A stretch of DNA of 64,000 nt from Clostridiales bacterium (lineage in GTDB: Bacteria; Bacillota; Clostridia; Lachnospirales; Lachnospiraceae): assembly GCA_021204025.1 (NCBI GenBank), contig JAJQAC010000063.1, forward strand, positions 1-64,000, written 5' to 3'. How positions within the stretch are numbered: the first letter of the stretch is position 1; each line of letters starts with the position of its first letter. Below, piece by piece: positions 11,423 to 62,140 of this stretch. A program made the translations under genes and the position numbers. Below the pieces are notes generated by a model. That model did no database searches and was not told the DNA's origin. It worked only from the letters and a program-made list of their open reading frames with translations.

Positions 11423-11470
11423 AAAACGGCAGATTTTGCAGATGAACATCTGTGGGATCTGCCGTTTTTA
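11423..11470 (+). terminator. terminator after typA
   Basis: A 12-bp stem, AAAACGGCAGAT (11423-11434) with 11457-11468, encloses a CAGAT/ATCTG hairpin and ends in a T run, 12 bases after the typA stop codon. The last T residues overlap the first arm of the adjoining repeat. Confidence 0.88.
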
Positions 11471-11655
11471 TTTCATAGGGAAGTGCGTCCTATGAAATAA
11501 AAAGTCTCCGACGGATCGCACTGCGGCGGAGTGGAACTATGTCGCTAAAGCGTCTACGCTCCGCTTCGGTCATTGCTAAACGTGTGCCACTGGCACACAG
11601 CAACCGCCGCAGGCGGAGAATCCTGCTTTGCAGGATTCTTTTTCATTCCATAGGA
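11468..11655 (+). repeat. mosaic repeat copy R1 (modules D, short C, E)
   Basis: Module D (11468-11551) opens with a 12-bp hairpin (11468-11479 with 11489-11500) and continues through the CTCCGACGG and GTCGCTAAAGCG segments. A short module C (about 11553-11606) contains CGCTCCGCTTCGGTCATTGC and a GTGTGCCA/TGGCACAC palindrome. Module E has CCGCC-GCA-GGCGG and a 9-bp hairpin (11618-11626 with 11630-11638) ending in five T residues, which could act as a terminator. Module D is the same as that of copy R2 except for three substitutions in about 84 bases, none of them in the hairpin arms. Confidence 0.85.
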
Positions 11656-11715
11656 CCGTATTTGGCAAAATTTCTTTCAGTTTTACATAAAAAATGTTAT
11701 GTTTTACATCTTCCG

Positions 11716-11744
11716 TTGATCGTTACTCATATTAATTGTATAAT
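11716..11744 (+). promoter_or_regulatory. sigma-A-type promoter upstream of the tandem-OB gene
   Basis: TTGATC (11716-11721) and a perfect TATAAT (11739-11744) are 17 bases apart. The resulting leader would be about 145 bases. Together with the typA terminator and repeat R1, this accounts for most of the 484-base gap; nothing else is recognised in it. Confidence 0.6.
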
Positions 11745-11895
11745 TGCTTTGTTCAAAAAAATTCCGCATATGTTTTTTCAGTATAAATTTGTCGCTATTT
11801 TGTGACAGATTCTCTGTATATCCCGGACTTCCGCGACATAAACATACTACTAGCGTTAAGCAAAAAGAATAATTAATCATGAGGAGAGAAGTACC

Positions 11896-12549
11896 ATGTC
11901 AGAAAAAGTAATTGAAAACAACAGGGTCAGTGTGATTGGAACGGTTGTCTCTGATTTCAGCTTCAGTCATGAGGTGTTTGGAGAAGGGTTTTATGTGGTG
12001 AGCATAGCGGTAAGCCGTCTTAGTGAACAGGCAGATATCATCCCGCTGATGATTTCCGAACGACTGGTTGACGTCAGAAAAGATTATCGGGGAAGCACCA
12101 TAGAGGCGATCGGACAGTTCCGCTCTTATAACCGGCATGAGGGCATCAAAAACCGGCTGGTGCTGTCCGTATTTGTACGTGAGATCCGCTTTATGGAGGA
12201 ATTTACTGACTATACGAAAACCAATCAGATTTTTCTTGATGGTTATATCTGCAAGGTTCCGATTTATCGCAAGACACCGCTGGGAAGAGAAATCGCGGAT
12301 CTTTTACTGGCAGTTAATCGTCCATACGCAAAATCAGATTACATACCCTGCATCGCCTGGGGAAGAAATGCGCGTTACGCTTCCGGATTTGAAGTGGGAA
12401 CCCGAGTCCGTGTATGGGGCAGAGTGCAGAGCCGTGAATATACCAAAAAGCTCAGCGAGACCCAGTGTGAAAAACGTGTGGCGTATGAGGTCTCGATCAG
12501 TAAGATGGAATGCGGGACCGGAGAAGAAGAGATGATCACAGGGATGTGA
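11896..12549 (+). CDS. single-stranded DNA-binding-like protein with two OB-type domains
   Basis: The 217-residue protein contains two SSB/PriB-like OB-fold units. The first is around residues 7-100 (VSVIGTVVSDFSFSHE to VREIRFME). The second is around residues 110-205 (IFLDGYICKVPIYRKTPLGR, PCIAWGRNARY, GTRVRVWGRVQSREY). The second unit is the more SSB-like. The protein lacks the acidic C-terminal tip ending in Phe of canonical SSB; it ends in MITGM. It is a lone gene, not in the rpsF-ssb-rpsR context, so it is probably an accessory SSB family member. The ATG is preceded by GAGGAGAG. Confidence 0.8.
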   Translation: MSEKVIENNRVSVIGTVVSDFSFSHEVFGEGFYVVSIAVSRLSEQADIIPLMISERLVDVRKDYRGSTIEAIGQFRSYNRHEGIKNRLVLSVFVREIRFMEEFTDYTKTNQIFLDGYICKVPIYRKTPLGREIADLLLAVNRPYAKSDYIPCIAWGRNARYASGFEVGTRVRVWGRVQSREYTKKLSETQCEKRVAYEVSISKMECGTGEEEMITGM

Positions 12550-12613
12550 AAATGCCGGCGGTGCCGGTTCGGGAAAATACCAATCCGGGAAAATAAACGG
12601 ATTATTTATGCAG

Positions 12614-12642
12614 AAAATCCTGTCCACAGAGACGGGATTTTT
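12614..12642 (+). terminator. terminator after the tandem-OB gene
   Basis: An 11-bp stem, AAAATCCTGTC (12614-12624) with GACGGGATTTT, contains one T-G wobble, has a six-base loop and a T run. It lies about 65 bases after the stop codon. Confidence 0.8.
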
Positions 12643-12709
12643 CGCGTCAGTATACATGCTTTCATTCGTGATCACATACGAAAGAAGAGGTTAGTGGAAG
12701 GTTCTCTAG

Positions 12710-12738
12710 TTGACTTGCAAAACCCAGTATGTTAAAAT
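12710..12738 (+). promoter_or_regulatory. sigma-A-type promoter for luxS with extended -10
   Basis: TTGACT (12710-12715) and TAAAAT (12733-12738) are 17 bases apart, and a TG dinucleotide at 12730-12731 extends the -10 box. Transcription would start near 12745, which excludes the upstream in-frame TTG at 12710 as the luxS start. Confidence 0.8.
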
Positions 12739-12787
12739 GACCGCGAGACTGCATGAAAATGACCGCAGACATGAGGAGAGTTGCAAA

Positions 12788-13267
12788 ATGGAAAAAATTG
12801 CCAGTTTTACTGTCAATCACTTAAAACTTTTACCGGGTATCTATGTCTCCCGCAGGGATCCGGTCGGGGATCAGGTAGTAACAACTTTTGATATCCGGAT
12901 GACCAGACCGAATTTTGAACCGGTGATGAATACTGCTGAGATTCACACGATCGAGCATCTGGGAGCTACATTTTTAAGAAACCATGTGGATTATCGGGAT
13001 AAAGTTCTGTATTTCGGACCGATGGGCTGCCGGACCGGCTTTTATCTGCTGTTGGCAGGGAACTATGAATCGTATGACATTATTTCACTGATGATTGATA
13101 TGTTCTCTTTTATCCGTGATTATGAGGGTGAAGTACCGGGAGCGCAGGCAAAAGACTGTGGTAATTATCTGGATATGAACCTGAACATGGCAAAGTATCT
13201 GGCTGATAAATATATCAGAGAGGTGCTTCGCTGCATAGATGATTCCCGGCTGAACTATCCGGAATGA
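12788..13267 (+). CDS. luxS: S-ribosylhomocysteine lyase (LuxS)
   Basis: LuxS splits S-ribosylhomocysteine into homocysteine and DPD, the precursor of autoinducer-2, within the activated methyl cycle. The metal-binding HTIEHL motif (about residues 52-57), the catalytic Cys in GPMGCRTGFY and the third ligand Cys in AKDCGNYLDM are all present. The length of 159 residues is typical. ATG 12788 follows GAGGAG (12773-12778) at good spacing. It is transcribed alone from its own promoter. No Pfs nucleosidase gene is adjacent. Confidence 0.96.
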   Translation: MEKIASFTVNHLKLLPGIYVSRRDPVGDQVVTTFDIRMTRPNFEPVMNTAEIHTIEHLGATFLRNHVDYRDKVLYFGPMGCRTGFYLLLAGNYESYDIISLMIDMFSFIRDYEGEVPGAQAKDCGNYLDMNLNMAKYLADKYIREVLRCIDDSRLNYPE

Positions 13268-13402
13268 AGATTGGCAGGAAAGACCTGACAGGAATCCGGC
13301 GATTCCGCGCAGGGCGTTTTCCGAAAGTAACTGAAAAAGGTATCAGAAAGCAAAAGGTATAAGAAAGTATAAGATACAGGGTTCGTTCTCAGGAGGAAAC
13401 TA

Positions 13403-16400
13403 ATGAGTGTAAAAAGAGTATATGTGGAGAAAAAGTCTGCTTTTGCGGTAAAAGCAGGAGAGTTGAGGGAAGAGATTACCAGTTATCTGAATCTGGATTC
13501 CGTGACGGATGTCCGGGTTTTGATTCGTTATGACGTTGAGAATCTGTCAGAGGAAACATATCAGCAGGCGCTTGTTACGATTTTTTCTGAACCGCCGGTT
13601 GACGAGGTGTATGAAGAAGATTTTCCGAAAAAAGCAGGAGATCAGATCTTTTCTGTAGAGTATCTGCCAGGACAGTTTGATCAGAGAGCGGATTCTGCTC
13701 AGCAGTGCTGCAAACTTCTGAATGAGGAAGAAGAACCGATCATCCGGACCGCAACGACCTATGTACTTTCCGGTACGCTGACCGGGGAACAGTTGGCGGC
13801 GGTGAAGTCCTTCTGTATCAATCCAGTAGACTCCCGTGAAGCCGGAGAAGAAAAACCGGTGACGCTGGTGTCGGTGTTTGAGACCCCTGATGATGTTGCG
13901 GTATTTAACGGCTTTTGCGAAATGGACTCTGAGACACTGGCATCGCTCTATGCTTCCTTGGGACTGGCGATGACAATCAAGGATTTTGAACATATTCAGA
14001 ATTATTATAAAACAGAGGAACTCCGGGATCCGACCGTTGCTGAGATCCGCGTGCTGGATACATACTGGTCAGATCATTGCAGACATACCACATTTTCGAC
14101 CGAATTAAAGGAAATAACGATTACAGACGGTTATTACCGTAAGCCGATTGAGGAGGCGTTTCAGCAGTATCTGGCAGATCACCGGGAACTTTATCAGGGC
14201 AGAGACGATAAGTTTGTCTGCCTGATGGATCTGGCCTGTCTGGGTGCGAAGAAGCTGAAAAAGGAAGGAAAGCTGACCGATCAGGAAGAATCGGATGAGA
14301 TTAATGCCTGCAGCATCGTGGTGCCGGTTGAGATCGACGGAAAGACGGAAGAATGGCTGATCAACTTTAAAAATGAGACTCACAATCATCCGACGGAGAT
14401 CGAACCTTTTGGCGGCGCGGCTACTTGCCTGGGCGGGGCCATCCGTGATCCGCTTTCCGGACGGACTTACGTCTATCAGGCAATGCGTGTGACAGGAGCG
14501 GCAGATCCGACAAAGCCGTTGTCAGAGACGCTTCATGGCAAACTTCCTCAGAGAAAACTGGTTACAGGGGCTGCCAATGGATATAGCTCCTATGGCAACC
14601 AGATTGGTCTGGCGACCGGCTATGTAAAAGAAATCTATCACCCGGATTATGTGGCGAAGAGGATGGAAATCGGCGCGGTTATGGGAGCCGCTCCGAGAAA
14701 ACAGGTCAGACGCCTGACTTCCGATCCTGGCGATATTATCGTGCTGCTGGGAGGACGCACCGGGCGTGACGGCGTTGGCGGTGCAACTGGTTCTTCCAAG
14801 GCTCATACGGAAAGCTCGATCGAGGTCTGTGGTGCTGAGGTGCAGAAGGGAAATGCTCCGACTGAGCGCAAACTCCAGCGGCTTTTCCGCCGCCCCGAGG
14901 TGTCCTCAATCATTAAAAAGTGTAATGATTTTGGCGCTGGCGGCGTGTCAGTGGCAATTGGTGAACTGGCTGCTGGTCTTTCTGTTAATCTGGATCTGGT
15001 ACCTAAAAAGTATGCGGGGCTGGACGGTACTGAGCTTGCGATTTCTGAATCTCAGGAACGAATGGCAGTTGTGCTGGATCCCAAAGACGTTGACGCATTC
15101 ATGGCATATGCGGAAGAAGAAAATCTTGAGGCGACCAAAGTCGCCGTGGTTACGGAAAGCCCAAGACTGGTATTGAACTGGCGGGGAAAAACGATCGTAG
15201 ATATCAGCCGCGCGTTTCTCGATACGAACGGCGCGCATCAGGAGACAACCGTTCTTCTGGAGACTCCGGGAAGGGAAGGGAATCCTTTTGTTCGCAATGA
15301 TATACCGGATGTGCGCGCGAAATGGCTGGAAACGCTTTCTGATCTCAATGTATGTTCCCAGAGAGGGCTGGTAGAGCGCTTTGATGGATCGATTGGCGCA
15401 GGTTCTGTCTTTATGCCGTATGGCGGCAGATATCAGTTGACGGAAACGCAGTCCATGGTGGCGAAGCTCCCGGTTCTGGAGGGAAAGACGAATACCGTGA
15501 CGATGATGAGTTATGGATTTGATCCTTACCTGTCGAGCTGGAGTCCTTATCATGGAGCGATCTATGCCGTAACGGATTCCGTGGCGAAAATTGTGGCGGC
15601 AGGCGGAGATTTTGAAAAACTGCATTTTACATTCCAGGAGTTCTTTAAACGTATGACGGACGATCCATCCCGCTGGGGAGCACCGTTTGCCGCGCTGCTG
15701 GGCGCATACCGGGCTCAGCTTGGCTTTGGCATCGGCTCGATCGGTGGTAAGGACAGTATGTCAGGCACCTTCTATGATGAAAAGCATGGGGAGATTAATG
15801 TGCCGCCGACACTGGTATCGTTTGCCGTGGATGTGGCGAATGTTCCGGACATTATTACGCCGGAGCTGAAACATCCAGGCAGTAAGATCATTGTTTTCCG
15901 CATTGACCGGGATGAATATGACCTTCCGGTATTTGATGAGGTTAAAGATGGTTACCGCAGGCTGCATGAGGATATAAAGGCGGGGCGTATTGTATCGGCT
16001 TATGCGGTCGGAGCACATGGCATTGCGGAAGCAGTCAGCAAGATGGCTTTCGGCAACAAACTTGGTATCAGGATTGAGCATAATCTGGATCCGCGGGATT
16101 TCTTTGCGCCAGGCTGGGGCAATATTGTCTGCGAAGTACCGGATGGCAGGGTAGGAGAGCTTGCGGTTACCTATACGGTGATTGGAGAAGTGACGGACAG
16201 AGATGTGTTTGAATATGGTCCGGTTAGTATTCCGGTTAATACCGCGCTTGATGCGTGGGTAAAACCATTGGAACAGGTATTTCCGACTACTTCACGGGTC
16301 GCTCAGACGCAGGTGCCGAATCAGTGCTATCATGCGGAGAGAGTTATCATTTGCAATCATAAGATCGCACAGCCGACTGTTTTTATACCGGTATTCCCTG

Positions 16401-17167
16401 GGACAAACTGTGAGTATGACAGTACGAAAGCATTTGAACGCGCGGGTGCGAAGGTGGTAACGAGAGTATTCCGCAATCTCTCTGCAAACGCGATCCGCGA
16501 GTCAGTTGAGGAGTATCGGGCACAGATTGCAAAGGCACAGATCGTTATGTTTCCGGGAGGTTTTTCAGCGGGTGATGAACCGGAGGGAAGCGCAAAGTTC
16601 TTTACCGCCGTATTCCGTAATGCTCTGATCCGTGAGGAAATTGATAAACTTTTAAATGAGCGTGACGGCCTGATGCTTGGTATCTGCAATGGCTTTCAGG
16701 CGTTGATTAAGCTGGGGCTTGTGCCGGAAGGAAAGATCGTGGAGCAGCGGCCAGATTCGCCGACGCTGGCGATGAATACGATTGGCCGGCATATCTCCCG
16801 CATGGTGTATACAAAGGTAGTGACGGACAAATCCCCATGGCTTGCGGGAGCAGAGTGCGGTGGTGTGTACTGTAATCCGGCGTCTCATGGAGAAGGCCGT
16901 TTTGTTGCTGATAACGAATGGCTGAAAAAACTTTTTGCCAATGGACAGGTTGCGACTCAGTATGTAGATGATCAGGGTATGCCTACAATGGATGAATTCT
17001 GGAATCCGAACGGTTCGTATATGGCCATCGAGGGTATTACGAGCCCGGACGGGAGAATCCTTGGCAAGATGGCTCACTCGGAACGGCGTGGAGATGGTGT
17101 CGCGATCAATATTTACGGGGAACAGGATATGAAGATTTTTGAATCCGGTGTTGCCTATTTTAAATAA
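13403..17167 (+). CDS. purL: phosphoribosylformylglycinamidine synthase, single-chain PurL
   Basis: This 1254-residue enzyme converts FGAR to FGAM in purine synthesis, using ATP and glutamine. It has an N-terminal PurS-like region, then a first AIRS-like domain (SDHCRHTTF, NFKNETHNHPTEIEPFGG) and a second one (GSIGGKDSMSGTF). The C-terminal glutamine amidotransferase domain has the nucleophile Cys in GICNGFQAL and the His in NPASHGEGRF. This is the large fused form, not the separate PurS/PurL/PurQ set of Bacillus. The ATG follows CAGGAGGAA. It is not next to other pur genes, and no purine riboswitch was seen in the 135-base leader region. Confidence 0.96.
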   Translation: MSVKRVYVEKKSAFAVKAGELREEITSYLNLDSVTDVRVLIRYDVENLSEETYQQALVTIFSEPPVDEVYEEDFPKKAGDQIFSVEYLPGQFDQRADSAQQCCKLLNEEEEPIIRTATTYVLSGTLTGEQLAAVKSFCINPVDSREAGEEKPVTLVSVFETPDDVAVFNGFCEMDSETLASLYASLGLAMTIKDFEHIQNYYKTEELRDPTVAEIRVLDTYWSDHCRHTTFSTELKEITITDGYYRKPIEEAFQQYLADHRELYQGRDDKFVCLMDLACLGAKKLKKEGKLTDQEESDEINACSIVVPVEIDGKTEEWLINFKNETHNHPTEIEPFGGAATCLGGAIRDPLSGRTYVYQAMRVTGAADPTKPLSETLHGKLPQRKLVTGAANGYSSYGNQIGLATGYVKEIYHPDYVAKRMEIGAVMGAAPRKQVRRLTSDPGDIIVLLGGRTGRDGVGGATGSSKAHTESSIEVCGAEVQKGNAPTERKLQRLFRRPEVSSIIKKCNDFGAGGVSVAIGELAAGLSVNLDLVPKKYAGLDGTELAISESQERMAVVLDPKDVDAFMAYAEEENLEATKVAVVTESPRLVLNWRGKTIVDISRAFLDTNGAHQETTVLLETPGREGNPFVRNDIPDVRAKWLETLSDLNVCSQRGLVERFDGSIGAGSVFMPYGGRYQLTETQSMVAKLPVLEGKTNTVTMMSYGFDPYLSSWSPYHGAIYAVTDSVAKIVAAGGDFEKLHFTFQEFFKRMTDDPSRWGAPFAALLGAYRAQLGFGIGSIGGKDSMSGTFYDEKHGEINVPPTLVSFAVDVANVPDIITPELKHPGSKIIVFRIDRDEYDLPVFDEVKDGYRRLHEDIKAGRIVSAYAVGAHGIAEAVSKMAFGNKLGIRIEHNLDPRDFFAPGWGNIVCEVPDGRVGELAVTYTVIGEVTDRDVFEYGPVSIPVNTALDAWVKPLEQVFPTTSRVAQTQVPNQCYHAERVIICNHKIAQPTVFIPVFPGTNCEYDSTKAFERAGAKVVTRVFRNLSANAIRESVEEYRAQIAKAQIVMFPGGFSAGDEPEGSAKFFTAVFRNALIREEIDKLLNERDGLMLGICNGFQALIKLGLVPEGKIVEQRPDSPTLAMNTIGRHISRMVYTKVVTDKSPWLAGAECGGVYCNPASHGEGRFVADNEWLKKLFANGQVATQYVDDQGMPTMDEFWNPNGSYMAIEGITSPDGRILGKMAHSERRGDGVAINIYGEQDMKIFESGVAYFK

Positions 17168-17257
17168 TGTACCTTATCGGAATTAAAAAAATTCGATAAA
17201 AAGTGCAGATTTTGCGTATAAAAGAAACCAGGAGACAAGGAAGCGAGATACAGAGAC

Positions 17258-20546: not shown

Positions 20547-20555
20547 GAGGTCAGA

Positions 20556-21788: not shown

Positions 21789-21858
21789 GTGAATGATGAA
21801 AGATCAAGGCGAATCTGGCTGCAGGTCGATGGACTGTGAGAACGGGAGATGAGATGAT

Positions 21859-22179: not shown

Positions 22180-22277
22180 AGTCAGCATAGAGAGTGTCTG
22201 ACCATGTGAAAATGCGAATGGAGATGAATCGTACCTGGTTAACAGATAAAAACAATCGACAGGAGAGATCGTAGATT

Positions 22278-25060: not shown

Positions 25061-25063
25061 ATT

Positions 25064-36494: not shown

Positions 36495-36524
36495 AAGTTG
36501 TTTACCTCGTATCATTATCGTTTT

Positions 36525-36655
36525 TTATTTCATAGGAAAGCGCGTCCTATGAAATAAAAAGTCTCCGACGGATCGCACTGCGGCGGAGTGGAATTATGTC
36601 GCTAAAGCGACTCGCCGCAGGCGGAGAATCCTGCTTTGCAGGATTCTTTTTCATA
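36525..36655 (+). repeat. mosaic repeat copy R2 (modules D and E)
   Basis: Module D (36525-36609) repeats that of R1, with a 12-bp hairpin (36525-36536 with 36546-36557). It is joined directly to module E, which has a 9-bp hairpin (36626-36634 with 36638-36646) and a T run; module C is absent. It lies between two divergent genes (CYTH and tig), where a terminator in the + direction would serve no evident upstream gene. R2 and the tig promoter fill this 373-base gap; an A/T-rich stretch lies between them. Confidence 0.85.
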
Positions 36656-38833: not shown

Positions 38834-40135
38834 ATGCCGAATAGAATTGACGAAAAAGTCAGATGCTCTTTCTGTGGGAAAAGCCAGGATCAGGTCAGGA
38901 AACTGATTTCCGGGATGAGTAAGGTATATATCTGCGATGAATGTGTGGAGTTATGCGGAGAGATCCTGGAAGAGGATGAGGATGAAGGAGAATCTTCGAT
39001 TCCGGATCTGAACGGAATTAATCTGCTTAAGCCAAAGGAAATCAAAAGTTTTCTCGACGAGTATGTGATTGGACAGGATATGGCGAAGAAGGCGCTTTCC
39101 GTAGCGGTGTACAATCATTATAAGCGTATTACGTCGATGAGAGACATGGATGTTGAGGTGCAGAAAAGTAATATTCTGATGCTGGGACCGACTGGTTCCG
39201 GTAAGACCTATCTTGCGCAGACACTTGCCAGGGTTTTAAATGTACCGTTTGCGATTGCCGATGCAACCGCGCTTACAGAGGCCGGATATGTCGGTGAAGA
39301 TGTAGAAAATATTCTGCTGAAGCTGATTCAGGCAGCCGAATATGACATCAGTCGTGCGGAATATGGCATTATCTATATCGATGAAATTGATAAAATTACC
39401 AAGAAATCCGAAAATGTCTCTATTACGCGAGACGTATCCGGAGAGGGGGTACAGCAGGCTCTTCTGAAGATTCTGGAGGGGACGCTGGCAAGCGTGCCAC
39501 CTCAGGGCGGTAGAAAGCATCCTCATCAGGAATTACTTCAGATTGATACGACCAATATTCTGTTTATCTGTGGCGGTGCTTTTGATGGTCTGGAAAAGAT
39601 TATCGAACGGCGTCTCAGCACTGGTTCGATCGGATTTAATGCAGAGATTGTGGATCGGAACCACACAGATATTGATGAGCTTTTAAAACAGGTTGAGCCT
39701 CAGGATCTGGTCAAATTCGGACTGATTCCAGAGTTTATCGGCCGCGTACCGGTGACGGTATCGCTGAATTCGCTGGATGAAAATGCACTGATGCGGATTC
39801 TGACAGAGCCAAAGAATGCTTTAACCAAACAGTATCAGAAATTATTTGAGATCGACGATGTCAAACTGGATTTCACCCCGGAGGCGTTGCGGGAAGTTGC
39901 TCATCAGGCGGTGGAGCGCAAGACCGGTGCGAGAGGACTCCGGTCAATACTGGAAGACGTTATGATGGATTTGATGTATGAGATTCCGTCGGATAATACG
40001 ATCGGCATGTGTACAGTCTCCCGGGATGCCGTATTAAAGAAGTGTCCTCCGGATTTAATCTATCGTGATCAGACTGTGCCAAAGAAATCCTTTGTACAGC
40101 GATTTAAGAAAGAAAAGACGGGTGAGATTGCGTAA
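38834..40135 (+). CDS. clpX: ATP-dependent Clp protease ATP-binding subunit ClpX
   Basis: ClpX unfolds substrates and feeds them to ClpP. The N-terminal zinc domain has four Cys in CSFCGKS and ICDECVELC. The AAA+ domain has Walker A GPTGSGKT (about residues 114-121), Walker [11 protein letters not shown] and the substrate-handling GYVGEDVEN and IGF loops. The length of 433 residues is typical. A strong terminator follows the stop codon immediately. Confidence 0.97.
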
Positions 40136-40169
40136 AACAAAATGGGAGCGTTCTGCTCCCTTTTGTTTT
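40134..40169 (+). terminator. terminator after clpX
   Basis: A long stem pairs AAAACAAAATGGGAGC with GCTCCCTTTTGTTTT, with one bulged T, around a five-base loop. The T-rich right arm follows the GC core directly, as in a canonical intrinsic terminator. The left arm overlaps the clpX stop codon. Confidence 0.92.
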
Positions 40170-40171: not shown

Positions 40172-40430
40172 GCGCAGGGCCGGGTAAGGAATTTTTGCGG
40201 CTGATGCCGCACCCGGCCCGCGCGGCGAGTATGAGGCGAAAAAGCTGCCTCCTACTCGATCGCACGGGCGGGTATGGAAATTTTGCAGCTGACGCTGCAT
40301 CCGGTCTACGCTCCGCTTCGGTCGTTGCTAAACGGTTCTGTGTGCCGGTGGCACACGTTAAGAACCGACTGAAACGAAGTGTAGATGCCACTGGCACACA
40401 GCAACCGCGCGGCGGGTAGGACGCGAAAAT
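40172..40430 (+). repeat. mosaic repeat copy R3 (modules A, B, A', C, partial B)
   Basis: Module A (40177-40219) is a GGGCCGGGT/ACCCGGCCC stem with GCGGC-TGAT-GCCGC inside. Module B (40226-40258) is a CGAGTA/TACTCG hairpin with a GAAAAA-containing loop. Module A' (40265-40303) repeats A with GCAGC-TGAC-GCTGC inside. Module C (about 40309-40407) is a three-part hairpin: 40311-40322 with 40368-40379, 40333-40339 with 40361-40367, and 40340-40346 with 40350-40356. A truncated B-like piece ends the element. With the clpX terminator it fills the 332-base gap before lon, where no separate promoter was recognised. Confidence 0.88.
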
Positions 40431-51590: not shown

Positions 51591-51638
51591 CGGGCAGCCT
51601 GGGAATGTGGCAGGTCCTGTAGTGATCCGGAGTACGAA

Positions 51639-51680
51639 AAGGGTGGGGCGGTGGATTTGCATCCCGTCTCACCCTTCCTT
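51639..51680 (+). terminator. possible terminator after frr
   Basis: AAGGGTG (51639-51645) pairs with CACCCTT (51670-51676), with a mostly paired but bulged interior, and is followed by CCTTGT. The T tract is poor, so this is tentative. Confidence 0.4.
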
Positions 51681-51683
51681 GTA

Positions 51684-51792
51684 TGCACAGGGCCGGGTAA
51701 GGAATTTTGCGGCATTCGCCGCACCCGGCCCGCGAGACGGGCAGGAGGCGAAAAAGCCTCCTCCTACTCGATTACACGGGTGGACAGGGAAG
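51684..51792 (+). repeat. mosaic repeat copy R4 (modules A, B and the start of A)
   Basis: Module A (51690-51731) repeats R3 module A with the same GGGCCGGGT/ACCCGGCCC stem and GCGGC-ATTC-GCCGC inside. Module B (51733-51770) has an AGGAGGC-GAAAAA-GCCTCCT hairpin. The beginning of another A-like unit (ACACGGGTGGACAGGGAA) follows and is then cut off. It lies between frr and uppS in an otherwise co-directional gene run. Confidence 0.85.
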
Positions 51793-51845
51793 TTCATACT
51801 TTCTGATCCATAGGCAAACTGCCAGAACGAATTCAGGAGGATATA

Positions 51846-52583: not shown

Positions 52584-52606
52584 GAATGGCAAAGGAGGAT
52601 GTTTTG

Positions 52607-53407: not shown

Positions 53408-53426
53408 CACGGGAAGGAAATTTTAT

Positions 53427-55642: not shown

Positions 55643-55775
55643 AACCTGGTAAGGCGTAGTGCGGAAGGTTCGTCTCAGAGAGGAAGGAATATCCTCTGAG
55701 AACCGTCAGAATATGAATCAGGCAGATTTGAAGTATCAGGTAAGGATAGGAAAGAGAAAGCTGAGGTTACAGACT

Positions 55776-56855
55776 ATGAGCAGAATGGTTACAAGGGAGG
55801 TTTCGATCGGGAATCGGGTGATCGGAGGAGATCATCCGATCCTGATTCAGTCGATGTGCAATACCAGGACGGAGGATACGCAGGCAACGATTGCGCAGAT
55901 TCTCAGGCTGGAACAGGCGGGTTGTGATATCATCCGTGTGGCGGTGCCTACGATGGAAGCAGCGGATAGTATCCGCAGTATAAAAAAAAGGATTCATATT
56001 CCGCTGGTGGCGGATATTCATTTTGATTATCGGCTGGCAATTGCCGCGATCGAGTGCGGGGCGGATAAGATCCGCATTAATCCGGGTAATATTGGGTCAG
56101 AGGAACGGGTGAAAGCGGTTGTTGATACGGCCAGAAATTACGGTGTGCCGATCCGCGTTGGAGTGAACAGCGGTTCGCTGGAGAAACCACTGATCGCAAA
56201 GTATGGCTCCGTAACGGCGGAAGGACTTGTAGAAAGCGCGCTGGCGCAGGTAGCGTTGATCGAGAGACTGGGTTATGACAGGCTGGTGATCAGTATCAAG
56301 TCATCGGATGTTATGATGTGTGTGAAAGCACATGAGCTGATCAGCAAACAGACGACTTATCCGCTGCATGTCGGTATCACAGAAGCGGGAACGCTTACAT
56401 CCGGGAATATTAAATCGGCAGTAGGGCTGGGTATTATCCTGAACGAGGGAATCGGAGATACGATCCGGGTCTCTCTGACAGGAGATCCGATCGAAGAAGT
56501 AAAATCAGCGAAACAGATTCTCCGCACGCTGGGATTGCGCAGGGGAGGCGTAGAGGTGGTTTCCTGTCCGACCTGCGGGAGAACGAGGATTGACCTGATT
56601 GGCCTGGCAAATCAGGTGGAAAATATGGTTACGGAATTTGACGATCTGGATTTGAAGGTCGCAGTGATGGGCTGCGCAGTCAATGGACCGGGAGAAGCAA
56701 GAGAAGCGGATATCGGTATTGCCGGAGGTGTCGGCGAAGGACTTCTGATCGCGCATGGCGAAGTGATCCGCAAGGTCGCGGAAGATCATCTGCTGGAAGC
56801 GCTGCACGATGAACTGGTCCGGATTGCCGCAAAGAGGAAGCAGGAGAGATCATAG
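55776..56855 (+). CDS. ispG: 4-hydroxy-3-methylbut-2-enyl diphosphate synthase (flavodoxin/ferredoxin) IspG
   Basis: IspG makes HMBPP with a [4Fe-4S] cluster; IspH then reduces it. The 359-residue protein has IGGDHPILIQSMCNTRT, RVAVPTM, VADIHFDYRLA, VGVNSGSLE and the cluster Cys in VSCPTCGRTRIDL and MGCAVNGPGEA. The frame is open from 55659, but ATG 55776, with GAGGT at 55763-55767, matches the family start. It abuts polC with no gap. Confidence 0.95.
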   Translation: MSRMVTREVSIGNRVIGGDHPILIQSMCNTRTEDTQATIAQILRLEQAGCDIIRVAVPTMEAADSIRSIKKRIHIPLVADIHFDYRLAIAAIECGADKIRINPGNIGSEERVKAVVDTARNYGVPIRVGVNSGSLEKPLIAKYGSVTAEGLVESALAQVALIERLGYDRLVISIKSSDVMMCVKAHELISKQTTYPLHVGITEAGTLTSGNIKSAVGLGIILNEGIGDTIRVSLTGDPIEEVKSAKQILRTLGLRRGGVEVVSCPTCGRTRIDLIGLANQVENMVTEFDDLDLKVAVMGCAVNGPGEAREADIGIAGGVGEGLLIAHGEVIRKVAEDHLLEALHDELVRIAAKRKQERS

Positions 56856-59800
56856 ATGAAGGCGTTTTTGGAGGTGTTTCCGGGATTACATATGACAGAG
56901 GAGATGGAAGGACTCTTAAAGCTGGTTGAGGTGGATCGTGTGACCATGACCAGCGACCGGAGTCTGATCCGTGTGTATATAGTATCCCCGCGCCTGATTC
57001 ATAAAAAGAATATCGTTTCGGTAGAAAACGGGATCCGGGACCAGCTTTTCCCGGGGAAGTCTGTCACTGTGAAAATATTTGAGAAATATCGCCTTTCCAC
57101 GCAGTATAATCCGGAAAAACTTTTAAGGGTGTATCGGGACAGCCTTTTATATGAATTAAAGAATTACAGTATTGTTGAGTATAATATGTTCCGGAAAGCG
57201 GATATTACATTTCCCAGACCGGACCTCCTCCATATGACAGTAGAAAATACGATGGTAAACCGGGAAAAGACCGGAGAATTGCAGCGGATTCTGGAAAAGG
57301 TATTTCATGAGAGATGTGGTTTGCCGACGAACGTGGAGCTTGAATATATCGATCCGCAGGATCGTTCCAAACGAGAGGATCGGTTCCATGCGGAAATTGC
57401 GGAGTACCTCTCTGCGCATGCAGACGCGGGGAATAGCAGCAGCGCGCAGATGGTTCAGCCCTCCCGGGAAAAGAAACCGTCCGGAAAGCGTGAGATCGTA
57501 AAACAGGAGGGAATCAGGCGGGATGCGTCGAAAAAGAAATCCTGGAGCGATGGTAATTACCGAAGTTCGGATCACCCGGATGTCCTTTACGGAAGAAATT
57601 TTGATGATGACTTTATCGAGATTGAAAAGATTGAAGGCGAGATGGGCGAGGTTACCGTGCGCGGACAGATCCTGAGTAAGGACAGCCGTGTGACCAGATC
57701 GGGTAAGACCATTTTTATTTTCCCAATCACGGACTTTACCGATACCATTACCGTAAAGGTGTTTGCCAATGAGGAAAACGTGGAGGCTCTGGACGCGGCG
57801 ATTCAGACGGGTTCCTTTATCCGCCTGAAAGGAAATACGACGATTGACCGTTTTGACGGAGAGCTTACGATCGGTTCGGTCAGAGGGATCAAAAAATGCG
57901 AGGATTTTCGTCTGAAGCGGACGGATCAGAGTCCGGTGAAGCGGGTGGAACTGCATTGTCATACGAAAATGAGCGATATGGACGGCGTTTCCGAAGTAAA
58001 AGATATTATCAGACAGGCAAAAGCCTGGGGAATGCCGGCGATCGCGATTACCGATCATGGCTGTGTCCAGGCGTTTCCGGATGCTTTCCATACGCTGGAC
58101 AAAGGGGATGATTTTAAGATCATCTATGGCGTCGAAGGGTATCTGGTGGATGATGTCAGAGAACTCGTGGAGAATCCGCAGGGACAGACTTTTCAGGATC
58201 CCTTTGTGGTTTTTGATATTGAGACGACCGGCTTCAGCCCGGAAAAAAATAAGATTATCGAAATCGGAGCTGTGCGGATCGAACGGGGAGAGATCACGGA
58301 ACGTTTCAGTACATTTGTCAATCCCTGTGAACCGATTCCCTATGAGATCGAACAGTTGACGGGTATTAATGACAATATGGTGCTGTCGGCGGATATCATT
58401 GATAATATATTGTCGGAGTTTCTGCGCTTTTGTGAGGGATGCGCGATCGTTGCTCATAATGCTTCGTTTGATGTGAGTTTTATTCAGTTTCAGGCAAAAC
58501 GGCTGGGACTGGCATTCTCGCCGACGGTTCTTGATACTGTGGAGATCGCGAGACAGCTTCTGCCAAATCTGAACCGTTATAAGCTGGATACGGTTGCGAA
58601 GGCTCTGGATGTCTCTCTGGAGAATCATCACCGCGCGGTGGATGACGCGGAGGCAACCGCGCATATTTTTTTAAAGTTTGTAAAAATGCTTCAGGAGCGG
58701 GAAATTGAGGATCTTAAGGGATTAAACGCGATCAGCCGATTGTCAGCGGAGGCGATTAAAAAAATGCCGACGTGGCATGTCATTATTCTGGCTAAAAATG
58801 AGATCGGTCGGGTGAATCTGTACCGACTGGTTTCGTGGTCCCATATTGATTATTTTTCAAAGAGACCCAGAATCCCCAAAAGTCTGTTGGACGAATATCG
58901 GGAGGGACTGCTGATCGGCTCTGCGTGCGAGGCGGGCGAACTATTTCAGGCGCTGCTGCGTGGCCAGCCGGAGGAAACGCTGTTAAAGATTGCTGACTTT
59001 TATGATTACCTTGAGATCCAGCCTCTGGGAAATAATGCGTTTATGCTACGAAATGAGAAAAGCACGGTTAAGACCTGGGAGGATCTGAAGGAATGTAACC
59101 GCAGAATACTGGCGCTGGGAGACGCTCTGGGGAAGCCTGTCTGCGCGACCTGCGACGTGCATTTTCTAAATCCGGAGGATGAGGTTTACCGCCGGATTGT
59201 CATGGCAGGGCAGGGATTTTCAGACGCTGACGAGCAGGCACCGCTCTTTCTGCGGACGACGGAGGAAATGCTGAAAGAATTTGACTATCTGGGGCCGGAT
59301 CGCGCGCAGGAGGTTGTGACCACCAATACGCGCCGGATCTGCGATATGTGTGAGACTATTGCGCCCGTCCGCCCGGACAAGAGTCCGCCTGTGATCGCGG
59401 ATTCGGATGAAACTCTGCGGAAAATCTGTTATGACCGCGCCTATGAGATCTACGGAGAAGAATTGCCGGAGATCGTTGTTGACCGTCTGGAGCGGGAACT
59501 GCATTCGATTATATCCAACGGCTTTGCCGTGATGTATATCATTGCTCAGAAATTAGTGTGGAAATCAAACGAGGACGGCTATCTGGTCGGTTCGCGTGGA
59601 TCTGTCGGCTCTTCTTTTGTTGCTTATCTGGCGGGGATTACGGAGGTCAATTCTCTGAGTCCACATTATCTGTGCCCAGAATGTCATTATTATGACTTTG
59701 ATTCGGAAGAGGTAAAGAAATACAGCGGTATGGCGGGCTGCGATATGCCGGACAAGATCTGTCCGCGCTGTGGCAGCAAACTTACCAAACAGGGATTCGA

Positions 59801-61295
59801 TATCCCGTTTGAGACCTTTCTTGGCTTTAAAGGAGATAAGGAGCCGGATATCGACCTGAATTTTTCCGGTGAGTACCAGAGTAAAGCCCATGATTATACG
59901 GAAGTGATCTTTGGTAAGGGTCAGACCTTCCGGGCGGGTACAATCGGCACGCTTGCGGATAAGACGGCTTTCGGTATGGTAAAACATTATTATGAAGATC
60001 GTGGAGTCCATAAGCGCGGCTGTGAGATTGACCGGATTGTGAAAGGCTGTGTCGGTATCCGGCGTACGACCGGACAGCATCCTGGCGGTATCGTCGTGCT
60101 GCCAATCGGTGAAGAAATTTATTCTTTCACTCCTGTCCAGCGTCCGGCAAATGATATGACGACCAAGACCGTGACGACTCATTTTGATTATCATGCGATT
60201 GATCATAACCTGCTCAAGCTGGATATACTGGGGCACGATGATCCGACCATGATCCGCATGCTGCAGGATCTGACCGGGATCGACCCGGTACGGAATATTC
60301 CCCTGGATTCTCCGGAGGTGATGTCCCTTTTCCAGAATACATCAGCTCTCGGTATCACGCCGGATGACATCGGCGGATGTCAGCTGGGCGCTCTCGGTAT
60401 TCCTGAATTTGGCACGGATTTCGCGATGCAAATGCTGATGGACGCGAAGCCAAAATATTTCTCTGATCTTGTGCGGATTGCCGGACTTGCCCACGGCACG
60501 GACGTATGGCTGGGTAACGCCAAGGACCTGATCCTCAGCGGACAGGCGACGATTCAGACCGCGATCTGCTGCCGTGATGATATCATGGTTTATCTGATCC
60601 AGATGGGATTAGAGGAGGGACTTTCCTTTACGATCATGGAAAGTGTCCGCAAGGGAAAAGGGTTAAAACCGGAGTGGATTGAAGAGATGAAGGCGCACGA
60701 TGTTCCGCAGTGGTATATTGATTCCTGCCTCAAGATTAAATATATGTTCCCCAAGGCACATGCGGCCGCGTATGTCATGATGGCATGGCGGGTCGCCTAT
60801 TGTAAAGTATTTCACCCGTTAGCTTATTACGCGGCATTTTTCAGTATCCGCGCGAGCGGTTTTTCCTATGAGCTGATGTGCCAGGGACGGGACAAGCTGG
60901 AATACCACCTTGCAGACTATAAAAAGAGAGCGAACGAGCTGTCCAAAGCAGAGCAGGATACATTGCGTGACATGCGGATTGCGCAGGAGATGTATGCGAG
61001 AGGATTTGAATTTACGCCTATCGATCTGTACCGGGCTGATGCAACCCGTTTCCAGATTATAGACGGAAAGCTGATGCCATCCTTTACCAGCATCGCCGGG
61101 ATGGGACAAAAAGCCGCCGAGTCTCTTCAGGACGCCGCGATGGACGGCCCCTTCCTCTCACGTGAAGATCTGAGAACCCGGGGCAAAGTCAGCAAGACCA
61201 TGTGCGACCTGATGGGAGACATGGGTCTCCTCGGCGACCTGCCCGAAGAAAACCAGCTCTCCCTGTTTGATTTCGCCCTGCCGCCGGCAGGGTGA
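56856..61295 (+). CDS. polC: DNA polymerase III alpha subunit, PolC type (Gram-positive)
   Basis: PolC is the main replicative polymerase of low-GC Gram-positives. The 1479-residue protein has an N-terminal region, an OB domain near residues 255-350 (GEVTVRGQILS), a PHP domain (VELHCHTKMSDMDGVSE) split by a DEDDh 3'-5' exonuclease (VFDIETTGFSPEKNKI to HHRAVDDAEA), and a zinc-finger-like CPECHYYDFD/CPRCGS segment. The catalytic Asp cluster is in EPDIDLNFSGEYQ, followed by the helix-hairpin-helix region. The length matches the family. It starts directly after the ispG stop. A GC-rich CCCTGCC-GCC-GGCAGGG hairpin spans the stop codon. Confidence 0.97.
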   Translation: MKAFLEVFPGLHMTEEMEGLLKLVEVDRVTMTSDRSLIRVYIVSPRLIHKKNIVSVENGIRDQLFPGKSVTVKIFEKYRLSTQYNPEKLLRVYRDSLLYELKNYSIVEYNMFRKADITFPRPDLLHMTVENTMVNREKTGELQRILEKVFHERCGLPTNVELEYIDPQDRSKREDRFHAEIAEYLSAHADAGNSSSAQMVQPSREKKPSGKREIVKQEGIRRDASKKKSWSDGNYRSSDHPDVLYGRNFDDDFIEIEKIEGEMGEVTVRGQILSKDSRVTRSGKTIFIFPITDFTDTITVKVFANEENVEALDAAIQTGSFIRLKGNTTIDRFDGELTIGSVRGIKKCEDFRLKRTDQSPVKRVELHCHTKMSDMDGVSEVKDIIRQAKAWGMPAIAITDHGCVQAFPDAFHTLDKGDDFKIIYGVEGYLVDDVRELVENPQGQTFQDPFVVFDIETTGFSPEKNKIIEIGAVRIERGEITERFSTFVNPCEPIPYEIEQLTGINDNMVLSADIIDNILSEFLRFCEGCAIVAHNASFDVSFIQFQAKRLGLAFSPTVLDTVEIARQLLPNLNRYKLDTVAKALDVSLENHHRAVDDAEATAHIFLKFVKMLQEREIEDLKGLNAISRLSAEAIKKMPTWHVIILAKNEIGRVNLYRLVSWSHIDYFSKRPRIPKSLLDEYREGLLIGSACEAGELFQALLRGQPEETLLKIADFYDYLEIQPLGNNAFMLRNEKSTVKTWEDLKECNRRILALGDALGKPVCATCDVHFLNPEDEVYRRIVMAGQGFSDADEQAPLFLRTTEEMLKEFDYLGPDRAQEVVTTNTRRICDMCETIAPVRPDKSPPVIADSDETLRKICYDRAYEIYGEELPEIVVDRLERELHSIISNGFAVMYIIAQKLVWKSNEDGYLVGSRGSVGSSFVAYLAGITEVNSLSPHYLCPECHYYDFDSEEVKKYSGMAGCDMPDKICPRCGSKLTKQGFDIPFETFLGFKGDKEPDIDLNFSGEYQSKAHDYTEVIFGKGQTFRAGTIGTLADKTAFGMVKHYYEDRGVHKRGCEIDRIVKGCVGIRRTTGQHPGGIVVLPIGEEIYSFTPVQRPANDMTTKTVTTHFDYHAIDHNLLKLDILGHDDPTMIRMLQDLTGIDPVRNIPLDSPEVMSLFQNTSALGITPDDIGGCQLGALGIPEFGTDFAMQMLMDAKPKYFSDLVRIAGLAHGTDVWLGNAKDLILSGQATIQTAICCRDDIMVYLIQMGLEEGLSFTIMESVRKGKGLKPEWIEEMKAHDVPQWYIDSCLKIKYMFPKAHAAAYVMMAWRVAYCKVFHPLAYYAAFFSIRASGFSYELMCQGRDKLEYHLADYKKRANELSKAEQDTLRDMRIAQEMYARGFEFTPIDLYRADATRFQIIDGKLMPSFTSIAGMGQKAAESLQDAAMDGPFLSREDLRTRGKVSKTMCDLMGDMGLLGDLPEENQLSLFDFALPPAG

Positions 61296-61365
61296 TAGGG
61301 GCGTGCATGTTACTAATCACTAAAGAAATCTTTATAATTAACACATGAGTTGTGCCAATAAAGTA

Positions 61366-61503
61366 GTCCCTGAGAGTTCAGCATATCCGCAGAGGACATT
61401 TTTCACGTCGGCACTTAGCGAGCAGTTTTTTGCGAGCTTAGTACCGCTACGTGAAAACCTAAGTGCGAACGGTCCTCGGAGGATATGCTGAACTCTCAGG
61501 GAC
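61366..61503 (+). repeat. 138-bp element: perfect 23-bp inverted repeat with interleaved inner arms
   Basis: The outer arms 61366-61388 and 61481-61503 are perfectly complementary over 23 bp. GAGGAC (61392-61397) and GTCCTC (61472-61477) continue the stem after a small internal loop. Inside, TTTTCACGT (61400-61408) pairs with 61449-61457, and GCACTTAG (61411-61418) pairs with 61459-61466. These two pairs interleave, so both can form only as a pseudoknot or alternate as two states. No T tract follows, and no frame is supported. The element lies after polC and before the tRNA promoter. Confidence 0.88.
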
Positions 61504-61510
61504 GGGTGGC

Positions 61511-61558
61511 TTGTCAAGAAAAATTCTTTAAAAAATATTTTTAAATTTTTCTTGACAA
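61511..61558 (+). repeat. 15-bp inverted repeat overlapping the -35 box of the tRNA promoter
   Basis: TTGTCAAGAAAAATT (61511-61525) and its exact complement (61544-61558) flank an A/T-rich centre. The right arm contains the TTGACA -35 hexamer. It could be an operator, a cruciform, or a terminator-like end for upstream transcripts. Confidence 0.75.
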
Positions 61559-61580
61559 TTAAAACAATTCATAGTATACT
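61552..61580 (+). promoter_or_regulatory. strong sigma-A promoter for the tRNA cluster
   Basis: A perfect TTGACA (61552-61557) and TATACT (61575-61580) are 17 bases apart, 15 bases before the first tRNA. This is the closest match to the consensus in the window, as expected for stable RNA. Confidence 0.88.
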
Positions 61581-61595
61581 TTCATCGTTCGACAT

Positions 61596-61669
61596 CGAGG
61601 TGTGGCTCAGTTTGGTAGAGCGCTGCGTTCGGGACGCAGAGGTCGCAAGTTCAAATCTTGTCGCCTCGA
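61596..61669 (+). tRNA. tRNA-Pro (anticodon CGG)
   Basis: The 74-base gene folds with acceptor arms CGAGGTG (61596-61602) and CGCCTCG, a D arm with GGCTCAG...TTGGTAGAG, the anticodon arm CTGCG-TTCGGGA-CGCAG and the T arm with GTTCAAATC. The loop gives anticodon CGG. No CCA end is encoded. Confidence 0.93.
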
Positions 61670-61696
61670 TTGCTTAAAAAGCATACAGAATGACAT

Positions 61697-61768
61697 GGCC
61701 TTGTGGTCAAGCGGTTAAGACGACGCCCTCTCACGGCGTAATCCCGGGTTCGATTCCCGGCAAGGTCA
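61697..61768 (+). tRNA. tRNA-Glu (anticodon CTC)
   Basis: The 72-base gene has acceptor arms GGCCTTG (61697-61703) and CAAGGTC, the anticodon arm ACGCC-CTCTCAC-GGCGT with anticodon CTC, and the T arm CCGGGTTCGATTCCCGG. The usual Glu isoacceptor with TTC must be elsewhere. No CCA end is encoded. Confidence 0.93.
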
Positions 61769-61807
61769 TTATAAGATGCTTTGGATGCGAGTCCAAAGCA
61801 TTTTATT

Positions 61808-61880
61808 GCTTCCATAGCGCAGTTGGTAGCGCACTTCACTCGTAATGAAGGGGTTGCCAGTTCGAGTCTGGCTGGAAGCT
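61808..61880 (+). tRNA. tRNA-Thr (anticodon CGT)
   Basis: The 73-base gene has acceptor arms GCTTCCA (61808-61814) and TGGAAGC, a D arm with AGCGCAGTTGGTAGCGC, the anticodon arm CTTCA-CTCGTAA-TGAAG with anticodon CGT, and the T arm with GTTCGAGTC. No CCA end is encoded. A terminator follows 11 bases later. Confidence 0.93.
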
Positions 61881-61890
61881 GATGATAGGA

Positions 61891-61916
61891 ACCCCGCATT
61901 GAATGCGGGGTTTTTT
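61891..61916 (+). terminator. terminator after the tRNA cluster
   Basis: An 8-bp GC-rich stem, CCCCGCAT (61892-61899) with ATGCGGGG (61903-61910), has a three-base loop and is followed by six T residues. Confidence 0.95.
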
Positions 61917-61920
61917 GTAT

Positions 61921-62140
61921 GTGCACACGGGCGTATGTGGAAATTTTGCAGCTGACGCTGCATCCGGTCTGCGCTCCGCTTCGGTCGTTGCTAAGCGGTC
62001 CTGTGTGCCAGTGGCACACGTCAAGGACCGACCGAAACGGAGTGTAGATGCCACTGGCACACAGCAACCGGTGCAGCGAGTATGAGGCGAAAAAGCCGCC
62101 TCCTACTCGATTGCAGGGCCGGACAGGGAATATTGTGGCT
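61921..62140 (+). repeat. mosaic repeat copy R5 (modules A', C, B and the start of A)
   Basis: Module A' (about 61929-61967) has GCAGC-TGAC-GCTGC inside. Module C (about 61973-62070) has three nested stems: 61974-61985 with 62031-62042, 61996-62002 with 62024-62030, and 62003-62009 with 62013-62019. Module B (62077-62109) is the CGAGTA/TACTCG hairpin with a GAAAAA loop. The start of another A-like unit (GGGCCGGACAGGGAA) closes the copy. It fills the gap between the tRNA terminator and the topoisomerase gene, in which no separate promoter was recognised. Confidence 0.88.

Follow-up and report, generated by a model that had tools for sequence, protein, structure and literature searches.

Repeat families inserted at intrinsic terminators of a Lachnospiraceae genome and their possible relation to group IIC introns

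Background

Five places between genes in the window, i.e. the whole stretch of 64,000 nucleotides of Lachnospiraceae DNA that was analysed, carry related hairpin-rich repeats (R1 to R5). The initial annotation regarded them as a mosaic of hairpin modules and proposed either a non-autonomous mobile element with modular recombination or a structured RNA leader family. What kind of element are these repeats, what determines their position and how did the mosaic arise?

Two families of hairpin repeats

All five copies were confirmed, each on the + strand, and the sharing of modules among them far exceeds chance. R1 and R2 have 88 nt in common at 95% identity and 42 nt at 100%, R3 and R5 168 nt at 90%, and R3 and R4 108 nt at 82%. 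They are members of two interspersed families, family I (R3, R4, R5) and family II (R1, R2). The family I unit consists of hairpin A followed by hairpin B and measures 87-88 nt, or more when it includes module C. It starts with C[AG]CA[GC]GG and ends in CCTACTCGAT or a close variant; the tail of its RNA reads CCTACTCGAU. Family II is built of hairpins D and E, the latter being a terminator-like hairpin of its own, 3´ of which other elements have landed. Module C is common to both families.

R1 (11465..11643) lies between typA and a gene for a single-stranded-DNA-binding-like protein. It has the order D-C-E, with the D hairpin at 11465-11504, C at about 11552-11604 and the E hairpin plus T-tract at 11605-11643 (module limits by eye), and is followed by a remnant of the start of a next D module, TTTTTCATTCCATAGGA (11639..11655), recognized by eye from other D arms. 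R2 (36522..36651), a D-E copy, stands between an unnamed minus-strand ORF and tig. R3, between clpX and lon, comprises an 88-nt A-B unit ending in CCTACTCGAT (40173..40260) and an older A'-C-B unit truncated in B (40261..40430). R4, between frr and uppS, comprises an 87-nt A-B unit, its newest (51686..51772), and an older family I remnant (51773..51792). R5, between a tRNA-Thr gene and a gene for a gyrase- or topoisomerase IV-like subunit B, comprises an A'-C-B unit ending in CCTACTCGAT (61924..62111) and an older family I remnant, the start of A (62112..62140). The modules described initially are real, while their order is simpler than had been described, namely units plus older remnants. Among the neighbour genes, tig, lon and uppS were retained; the former tandem-OB gene and topoisomerase B are now described as above.

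All five copies fold more stably than their dinucleotide shuffles (z = -6.6, -7.2, -6.8, -5.6 and -6.7 for R1 to R5), and for each copy 0 of 200 shuffles folded as well. The hairpins of both families covary strongly, with two-sided changes in 10 of 26 pairs in family I and 40 of 44 in family II; 0 of 500 shuffles were as good in either case.

Genome-wide search, advised in the initial annotation, revealed that the modules recur well outside the window, at about 94 places so far in the 3.04-Mb genome, both families taken together. Repeat-depth analysis of 304 kb of this genome yielded 93 repeat regions, 84 of the R1-R5 kind (among them C85:23437 and C85:23610, which could be parts of a single array interrupted by N) and 9 other repeats; model searches added 10 places to the 84. 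No repeat copy in the window reached an Rfam gathering score, and matches of R3 and R1 at a permissive threshold stayed far below it. R3, the sole query, had no match in a phage or plasmid collection, and a phage or plasmid origin was rejected. In searches of the open-licence PMC literature, neither these repeats nor a core-less satellite of a group II intron turned up.

Judging from sequence matches, presence across the genus is patchy. R3 is matched at E<=0.001 in 9 of 24 genomes (own included); among the matches listed, only those in G000, G006 and G019 cover A-B, and the others fall in module C. Within the bacterial family, family II is matched in 62 of 150 sampled genomes and family I is found in 14 genera (vs 136 without it). 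A class-wide survey of family II, with 14 candidates scored per genome, gave matches at E<=1e-7 in 7 of 245 genomes, 5 belonging to the own family and 2 to other families with weak matches.

Two further readings were considered and rejected. An autonomous family II element, carrying a gene between its D and its E, finds no support in the spacing of 263 D matches, many of them reverse-strand palindrome matches: E follows within 120 nt in 123, at 121-300 nt in 20, at 301-4000 nt in 3 and not at all in 117 (a count of spacings). As for a composite transposon bounded by the two copies on contig C31, the translations read between them point to an EamA-like transporter ORF and a serine-acetyltransferase-like ORF, with no transposase seen.

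Insertion at intrinsic terminators

The initial annotation had missed the terminator directly 5´ of most copies. A hairpin plus T-tract precedes R1 (11423..11469, 3´ of typA, from sequence, terminator test and gene), R3 (40134..40169, 3´ of clpX, from terminator test and gene) and R5 (61890..61916, 3´ of the tRNA-Thr gene), all on the + strand. Upstream of R4, downstream of frr, a terminator-like hairpin was found by eye (51638..51680, + strand); its T-tract is interrupted (TTCCTTG), and it is uncounted in the terminator test, which needs TTT. R2 has a T-run alone, and some other family II copies lack an upstream hairpin as well.

The test requires a hairpin of dG<=-12 (or -8) directly before a T-run. 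At dG<=-12 it is passed by 33/38 family I copies, 25/40 family II copies of the own genome (including 5 palindrome matches on the wrong strand) and 48/61 named family II copies, compared with 9/114, 13/120 and 17/183 shuffled controls and 22/152, 27/158 and 40/244 other T-runs, respectively. At -8 the counts are 37/38, 28/40 and 52/61 for the copies, 35/114, 31/120 and 43/183 for shuffled controls and 42/152, 54/158 and 85/244 for other T-runs. The junction between T-tract and first unit reads ATG, with A in 40, T in 42 and G in 42 of 43 first units of the own genome, and in 25, 30 and 30 of 30 in the sister genome G006. Both families sit directly 3´ of intrinsic terminators, in one orientation and with a fixed 5´ junction.

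For some copies, the terminator upstream of the insertion belongs to a T-box and a gene follows downstream (Rfam detects the T-box in L142, L149 and L157). With the motif upstream of 1/84 own and 3/67 named copies, there is no sign of a T-box preference. Terminators, including some T-box terminators, are insertion sites common to unrelated elements.

Serial insertion

At the same terminators, the sister genome can be empty or carry a remnant or the other family. Of 17 two-sided sites, read by eye, 7 are occupied by the same family and 2 by the other; a remnant is left at 3, 3 are without any element, and 2 are unclear; at the R2 site, G006 has no intact element. The R4 unit is a precise insertion (TTGTATG^TACACGGG vs TTATATG^CACACGGG in G006) without target duplication, and a remnant like that at R4 is the sole element at the G006 site. 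Another precise insertion, at C5:5116, lies inside a decayed D arm, with a 2-nt AT ambiguity at the junction. Clean insertions without loss of flank are these two and the intron described below, each in front of an older repeat copy or remnant. The family I insertion at C27:120832 is unclean: about 80 nt that G006 has at this site are missing.

Such filled, empty and differently filled orthologous sites, together with the R4 insertion, bear out the proposal of a non-autonomous mobile element. Most of what had been ascribed to modular recombination can instead be ascribed to serial insertion at a single junction; exceptions are the occurrence of C in both families and a D-C-B chimera at C46:53978. 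The mosaic is largely the product of new units entering just 3´ of the T-tract, before older, decaying units. Family I arrays therefore gain units next to the terminator, while the opposite end decays. Nearest-neighbour similarity shows a weak difference in the same direction (median 0.955 for 55 first units vs 0.924 for 8 later units, one-sided p=0.047). Even without an intron link, two covarying families that target terminators and nest serially would usefully correct interpretations of such repeats as mosaics.

Family I and the group IIC intron

One group IIC intron was detected in the genome, as two contig pieces: compared with the 1907-nt intron of a relative, C23 matches positions 1-1234 and C77 positions 1239-1907, with 4 nt missing between them. 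Its junction, T-tract-ATG^, is the same as that of family I. On the left, the intron abuts a family II copy at its E hairpin and T-tract (GGATTCTTTTTTATG); on the right, a family I unit follows directly 3´, its start being CGCAGGGCCGGG.

Among 606,054 positions, the last 16 nt of the intron, with up to 2 mismatches, are matched 39 times inside family I and a single time elsewhere; at 3 and 4 mismatches they are equally common outside (10 and 36) and inside (10 and 28). The best BLAST match of each window copy to the intron is this tail (E 3e-4 for R5, 0.007 for R4, 0.005 for R3). CCTACTCGAT is the intron end in 10 of 26 loci examined, including those of the genus members G005, G007, G009, G010 and G013, which have none or one weak R3 match, and 5 of the 15 intron-like ends listed differ from it (e.g. 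CCTACTCGAC). Intron domains V-VI and the adjacent A-B unit have a similar fold outline, and hairpin B resembles group IIC domain VI.

The site recognized by group IIC introns consists of a terminator stem-loop plus IBS1 (PMC7161350, PMC10190682). Family I shares with these introns the target (stem-loop and T-tract 5´ of the insertion), the DVI-like 3´ hairpin and the intron-type 3´ end; family II shares the target only, and no tail common to it and the intron was found. Unlike the introns, family I lacks the GUGYG 5´ end and has no recognized domain V or catalytic core, the window repeats giving no Rfam intron match; nor has it a reverse transcriptase, its units being too short to code for one. 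Their similarity is confined to the 3´ end, the 5´ ends being GTGCG in the intron and C[AG]CA[GC]GG in family I. At the putative branch position, at least 19 of 81 unit ends (12 commonest end sequences) have G instead of A, and the consensus structure pairs this position. No EBS1 was identified, nor a clear IBS1-EBS1 pairing or covariation. Splicing of family I, for want of a recognizable domain V or ribozyme core, could only occur in trans; we know of no precedent for trans-splicing of such a core-less RNA.

Discussion

R1-R5 represent two non-autonomous families inserting at terminators, and we consider it probable that family I is a satellite of group IIC introns which resembles a SINE and lacks a ribozyme. 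It shares the 3´ tail and the target with its presumed partner and lacks the partner's machinery. In eukaryotic SINE-LINE pairs, too, the non-autonomous element has only its 3´ tail and target in common with the autonomous retroelement. Family I differs in being bacterial and in its putative partner, a particle of ribozyme and reverse transcriptase, which would act in trans. The group IIC ribonucleoprotein might act in trans on family I RNA, reverse-splicing it by its intron-like tail and copying it; this particle is known to recognize a terminator stem-loop together with a short T-rich sequence. Family II uses the same kind of target, and its E terminators might offer further landing sites to both families. 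We would give about even chances to the more specific proposal that family I is a bacterial SINE of about 87 nt, inserted by the intron particle through its DVI tail and stacking at terminators, with family II terminators serving as new sites. If this is true, group II introns, from which LINEs and the spliceosome are presumed to descend, have SINE-like parasites in bacteria, and a class of repeats found behind terminators across a bacterial family is explained.

It is rather unlikely that another factor brings both families to terminators and that family I obtained its tail by recombination or convergence, with no mobilization by the intron implied. Such an origin would agree with family II, which targets terminators without an intron tail, and with several family I genomes in which introns are absent or undetected. 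For example, G006 (draft, 95% complete) is rich in family I and gave no GIIM match, and RVT_1 has no match in 6 of 14 genera with family I, with no association between the two (8/14 vs 81/136, p=1). However, tail, DVI-like fold, target and exact junction would then all coincide with those of the intron by other means.

Less likely still, both families could be MITE- or REP-like DNA elements moved by a Y1 transposase (IS200/IS605 or RAYT), which recognizes hairpins and T-rich sites and makes no duplication. The repeats are built of hairpins, keep one orientation with respect to a T-rich site and show no duplication at R4; an IS200-like copy immediately follows, on the 3´ side, an E hairpin with its T-tract, and Y1_Tnp is weakly commoner in genomes with family II (43/62 vs 45/88, p=0.029). 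For family I the trend is opposite (5/14 vs 83/136, p=0.09). The RAYT-type partner suggested initially did not emerge from the Y1_Tnp search: in the own genome this search matched one IS200-like element, present in two copies, both interrupted, and 19/62 family II genomes are without a match, including G034, G090 and G171 with 21, 12 and 11 scored copies. No Y1 gene flanked by repeats was found, one interrupted IS200-like copy having a family II copy on one side, and by eye it shares no end sequence with the repeats. T-tracts flank family II at either side; terminal inverted repeats were judged absent by eye.

That R1-R5 are cis-acting structured leaders or 3´ UTR elements with a host function, as strong covariation and the copies between T-box terminator and gene might suggest, is very improbable: the downstream gene, located with a crude ORF caller, is codirectional in 54/77 own copies (15/21 in the window background) and opposite in 23/77 own and 25/61 named copies, an unconstrained orientation that argues against a leader RNA consistently upstream of and codirectional with its gene; presence, family and unit number vary at the same terminator between sister species; and copies decay, e.g. 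the degenerate G006 counterpart of C70:5280 and a lone E at C15:66355.

Terminator-inserting families with an intron-like tail in one of them also compare with known bacterial repeats. The Streptococcus elements BOX (boxA-boxBn-boxC), RUP and SPRITE are likewise modular, hairpin-rich, non-coding interspersed repeats whose families nest, and SPRITE resembles a terminator (PMC3049150, PMC10969869). Compared by description rather than sequence, BOX differs from our repeats in the T-tract site, growth at the terminator end and the group II intron tail of family I. REPs and BIMEs with their RAYT are interspersed hairpin mosaics as well; here, the site and orientation are fixed by a terminator, and nothing RAYT-like was found beyond the interrupted IS200-like copies. 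The repeat units described here are also longer than REPs, for which 20-40 bp are given (PMC3733652).

Two families of repeats

The repeat copies R1-R5 described in the initial annotation are genuine and belong to a far larger set. They have relatives at about 94 places (a lower bound) in the genome holding the window (G000; 3.04 Mb, 91 contigs), so the modules recur outside the window. Comparing 304 kb of this genome's DNA with itself revealed 93 repeat regions; 84 are of the R1-R5 kind and 9 of other kinds. Covariance-model searches added a further 10 places. Searches of the same genome with R3 and R1 returned at least 53 and at least 61 matches, respectively, with the best 40 candidates scored per search.

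R1-R5 and their genomic relatives are two families. Family I (R3, R4, R5) consists of tandem units, each composed of hairpin A followed by hairpin B. Family II (R1, R2) has the order hairpin D, middle stem, E, module E being a hairpin with T-tract that resembles an intrinsic terminator. Module C is common to both; it occupies the gap between A and B in family I and the gap between middle stem and E in family II. A D-C-B chimera at C46:53978 (own-genome contig:position) links the two families, thus some module exchange occurred.

In both families the structure is supported by covariation. Two-sided changes were found in 10 of 26 pairs of family I (30 own-genome units), with 29 covarying cells where shuffling gave 6.3 on average. 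For family II (85 matches, 80 named loci searched) they affect 40 of 44 pairs, with 341 cells against 75 in shuffled data, in an alignment biased toward the structure because it was fitted to the model. None of 500 shuffles was as good in either family.

The tandem array of family I units at C85:23437-23775 borders on a stretch of N and may therefore exceed its assembled length. A subtype of family II recognized by eye (C10:44770, C48:14928, C72:77113) carries an inverted half of C on its 5´ side and a direct half on its 3´ side, which, judged from the sequence, could form a long-range stem.

Position behind terminators

On reading of the sequences, most copies start directly 3´ of a terminator. 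A test for hairpins of dG <= -12 abutting the T-run, with shuffled upstream sequence and unrelated T-runs of the same loci as controls, confirmed this. Such a hairpin precedes 33/38 family I copies (5 of 43, R4 included, were left out for having no TTT near the start), 25/40 own family II copies (2 of 42 without T-run left out; the 40 include 5 palindrome matches on the wrong strand, which should not count) and 48/61 named family II copies. The last set started from 67 of the 85 matches, after manual removal of 18 that were mostly weak or truncated; 4 without T-run and 2 too close to a contig end were then left out. Controls gave 8-11% (shuffled) and 14-17% (unrelated T-runs). Relaxing the cut-off to -8 raises the counts to 37/38, 28/40 and 52/61 and the controls to 23-31% and 28-35%. 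R2 deviates from this pattern, as only a T-run lies upstream of it.

According to a crude ORF caller, the upstream gene is codirectional for 66/82 own and 44/58 named copies; the downstream gene has the same orientation for 54 own copies and the opposite for 23 (named 36/25), and 4/84 own and 12/67 named copies lie inside a called ORF. Because upstream genes are mostly codirectional and downstream orientation of own copies stays near the window background (15 same, 6 opposite), we conclude that the elements trail terminators and do not lead genes; this speaks against the suggestion of a structured RNA leader family. At three loci from other genera (L142, L149, L157) a family I or II element is situated between a T-box terminator (Rfam T-box) and the next gene. 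Family II at T-box loci therefore puts a second terminator-like hairpin within an amino-acid-responsive leader.

Insertion history

We searched 893 kb of the sister genome G006 (Lon protein identity 94%) for the flanks of the 84 own regions, and 17 sites matched on both sides. By reading, the same family occupies the terminator in both genomes at 7 of them, frequently in different units. At 2 sites, C50:4578 and C52:956, G006 has the other family; a further 3 have just a remnant and 3 no element, and 2 are ambiguous. The cleanest insertion is R4. G006 reads ...CCTTATATG^CACACGGGAGGATAAG, and the window reads ...CCTTGTATG, an 87-nt unit (51686-51772), then TACACGGGTGGACAGGG. A whole unit has therefore entered behind the terminator and ahead of an old remnant, and neither loss nor duplication is visible relative to G006. 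The array 'A-B-A'-C-partial B', initially taken for a mosaic, can thus be read as a newer unit ahead of an older one; of the mosaic claim, some module exchange stands. The site at C27:120832 is not clean, as about 80 nt of G006 are absent next to the insertion.

Four adjacent family pairs were found automatically, the C46 chimera included, all in the order II then I. At C5:5116 a family I unit inserted into the T-tract of a T-box terminator, ahead of a decayed D arm; this order, I then II (remnant), is also compatible with insertion at a terminator.

A group IIC intron at the same site

The only own-genome match to reverse transcriptase is at the end of contig C23 and the only one to the maturase domain at the start of C77. 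Rfam classifies the C23 piece as group II intron (D1-D4-3) and the C77 piece as a group II domain V region. They cover positions 1-1234 and 1239-1907, respectively, of a relative's 1907-nt intron and hence very probably derive from a single intron, each piece being one half. On the left, this intron is bordered by a family II copy with its E hairpin and T-tract (...GGATTCTTTTTTATG), on the right by a complete family I unit (CGCAGGGCCGGGTAAGG...). Excision in silico restores the junction typical of family I, TTTTTTATG|CGCAGGGCC, so that intron and family I share one site, exact to the base.

They also share a 3´ tail. The searched pattern ends the intron at 15 of 26 loci, 10 times as CCTACTCGAT and 5 times as a variant. 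The former include genus members G005, G007, G009, G010 and G013, each with zero or one weak R3 match. Among complete family I unit ends of G000 and G006, CCTACTCGAT accounts for 50/81 and CCTGCTCGAT for 13/81. Allowing up to 2 mismatches, we found the final 16 nt of the own intron 39 times within family I and a single time outside it (606,054 positions); with 3 mismatches, 10 hits lie inside and 10 outside family I, with 4, 28 and 36. Predicted folds of intron DV-DVI and the adjacent family I unit are similar in outline (long hairpin, then hairpin interrupted near its base and two-nt AU tail); that of the R4 unit differs slightly at the base. No similarity above background was found between intron and family I outside the 3´ end.

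Possible mechanism of mobilization

The target of group IIC introns is a terminator-like stem-loop with short IBS1, and their integration proceeds by reverse splicing coupled to cDNA synthesis (PMC7161350, PMC10190682). Family I resembles these introns in target, polarity, absence of duplication and a 3´ end such as the pathway expects, but has no ribozyme. In the simplest account, family I RNA would stand in for the 3´ end of the intron itself within the particle, much as SINE RNAs exploit LINE proteins. We consider the chances about even that family I is a satellite of group IIC introns. Against this, reverse transcriptase is present in 8/14 family I genera and 81/136 others (p=1), a maturase-domain search gave no match in G006, and family I units do not always retain the branch-point A. 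Past mobilization with later loss of the intron would fit the missing co-occurrence. If mobilization in trans is true, family I represents a new category of element. We are highly confident that the repeats are real, structured, mobile and terminator-targeted; they are novel in detail and, by kind, non-autonomous interspersed elements.

Distribution and neighboring elements

Family II is much wider in distribution than family I: covariance models (E<=1e-5, strict filters) detected them in at least 62 and at least 14, respectively, of 150 Lachnospiraceae genomes, sampled one per genus. Outside the family, weak family II matches occurred in 2 genomes (245 genomes of the class sampled). Among the matches listed in a pattern scan of named genomes are Eubacterium sp. 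An11, Diplocloster, Lacrimispora, Eisenbergiella, Roseburia, Anaerostipes and Hungatella. The presence of family II shows weak associations with Y1 transposases (p=0.029) and with reverse transcriptases (p=0.043), both of which could be an effect of genome size.

The E hairpin and T-tract of family II have received family I (C10, C52, C89), an IS200-like element (C14) and the intron (C23). The IS200-like element, at locus L080:1098-1240, directly follows the T-tract of the E hairpin on its 3´ side; it and the copy on C55 are identical over 534 nt, each interrupted.

The window harbors other repeats as well. One at 61360-61505, with long inverted arms (61366-61411/61458-61503), is located just upstream of a tRNA cluster and has relatives at C29:6675, C70:6896 and C85:22151, and beside the element at C51:124669. 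Short palindromic repeats (TTACAGGTCACA...) at 9303-9370 and 9416-9455 are unrelated to R1-R5 and have apparent relatives at C37:2608 and C61:33855.
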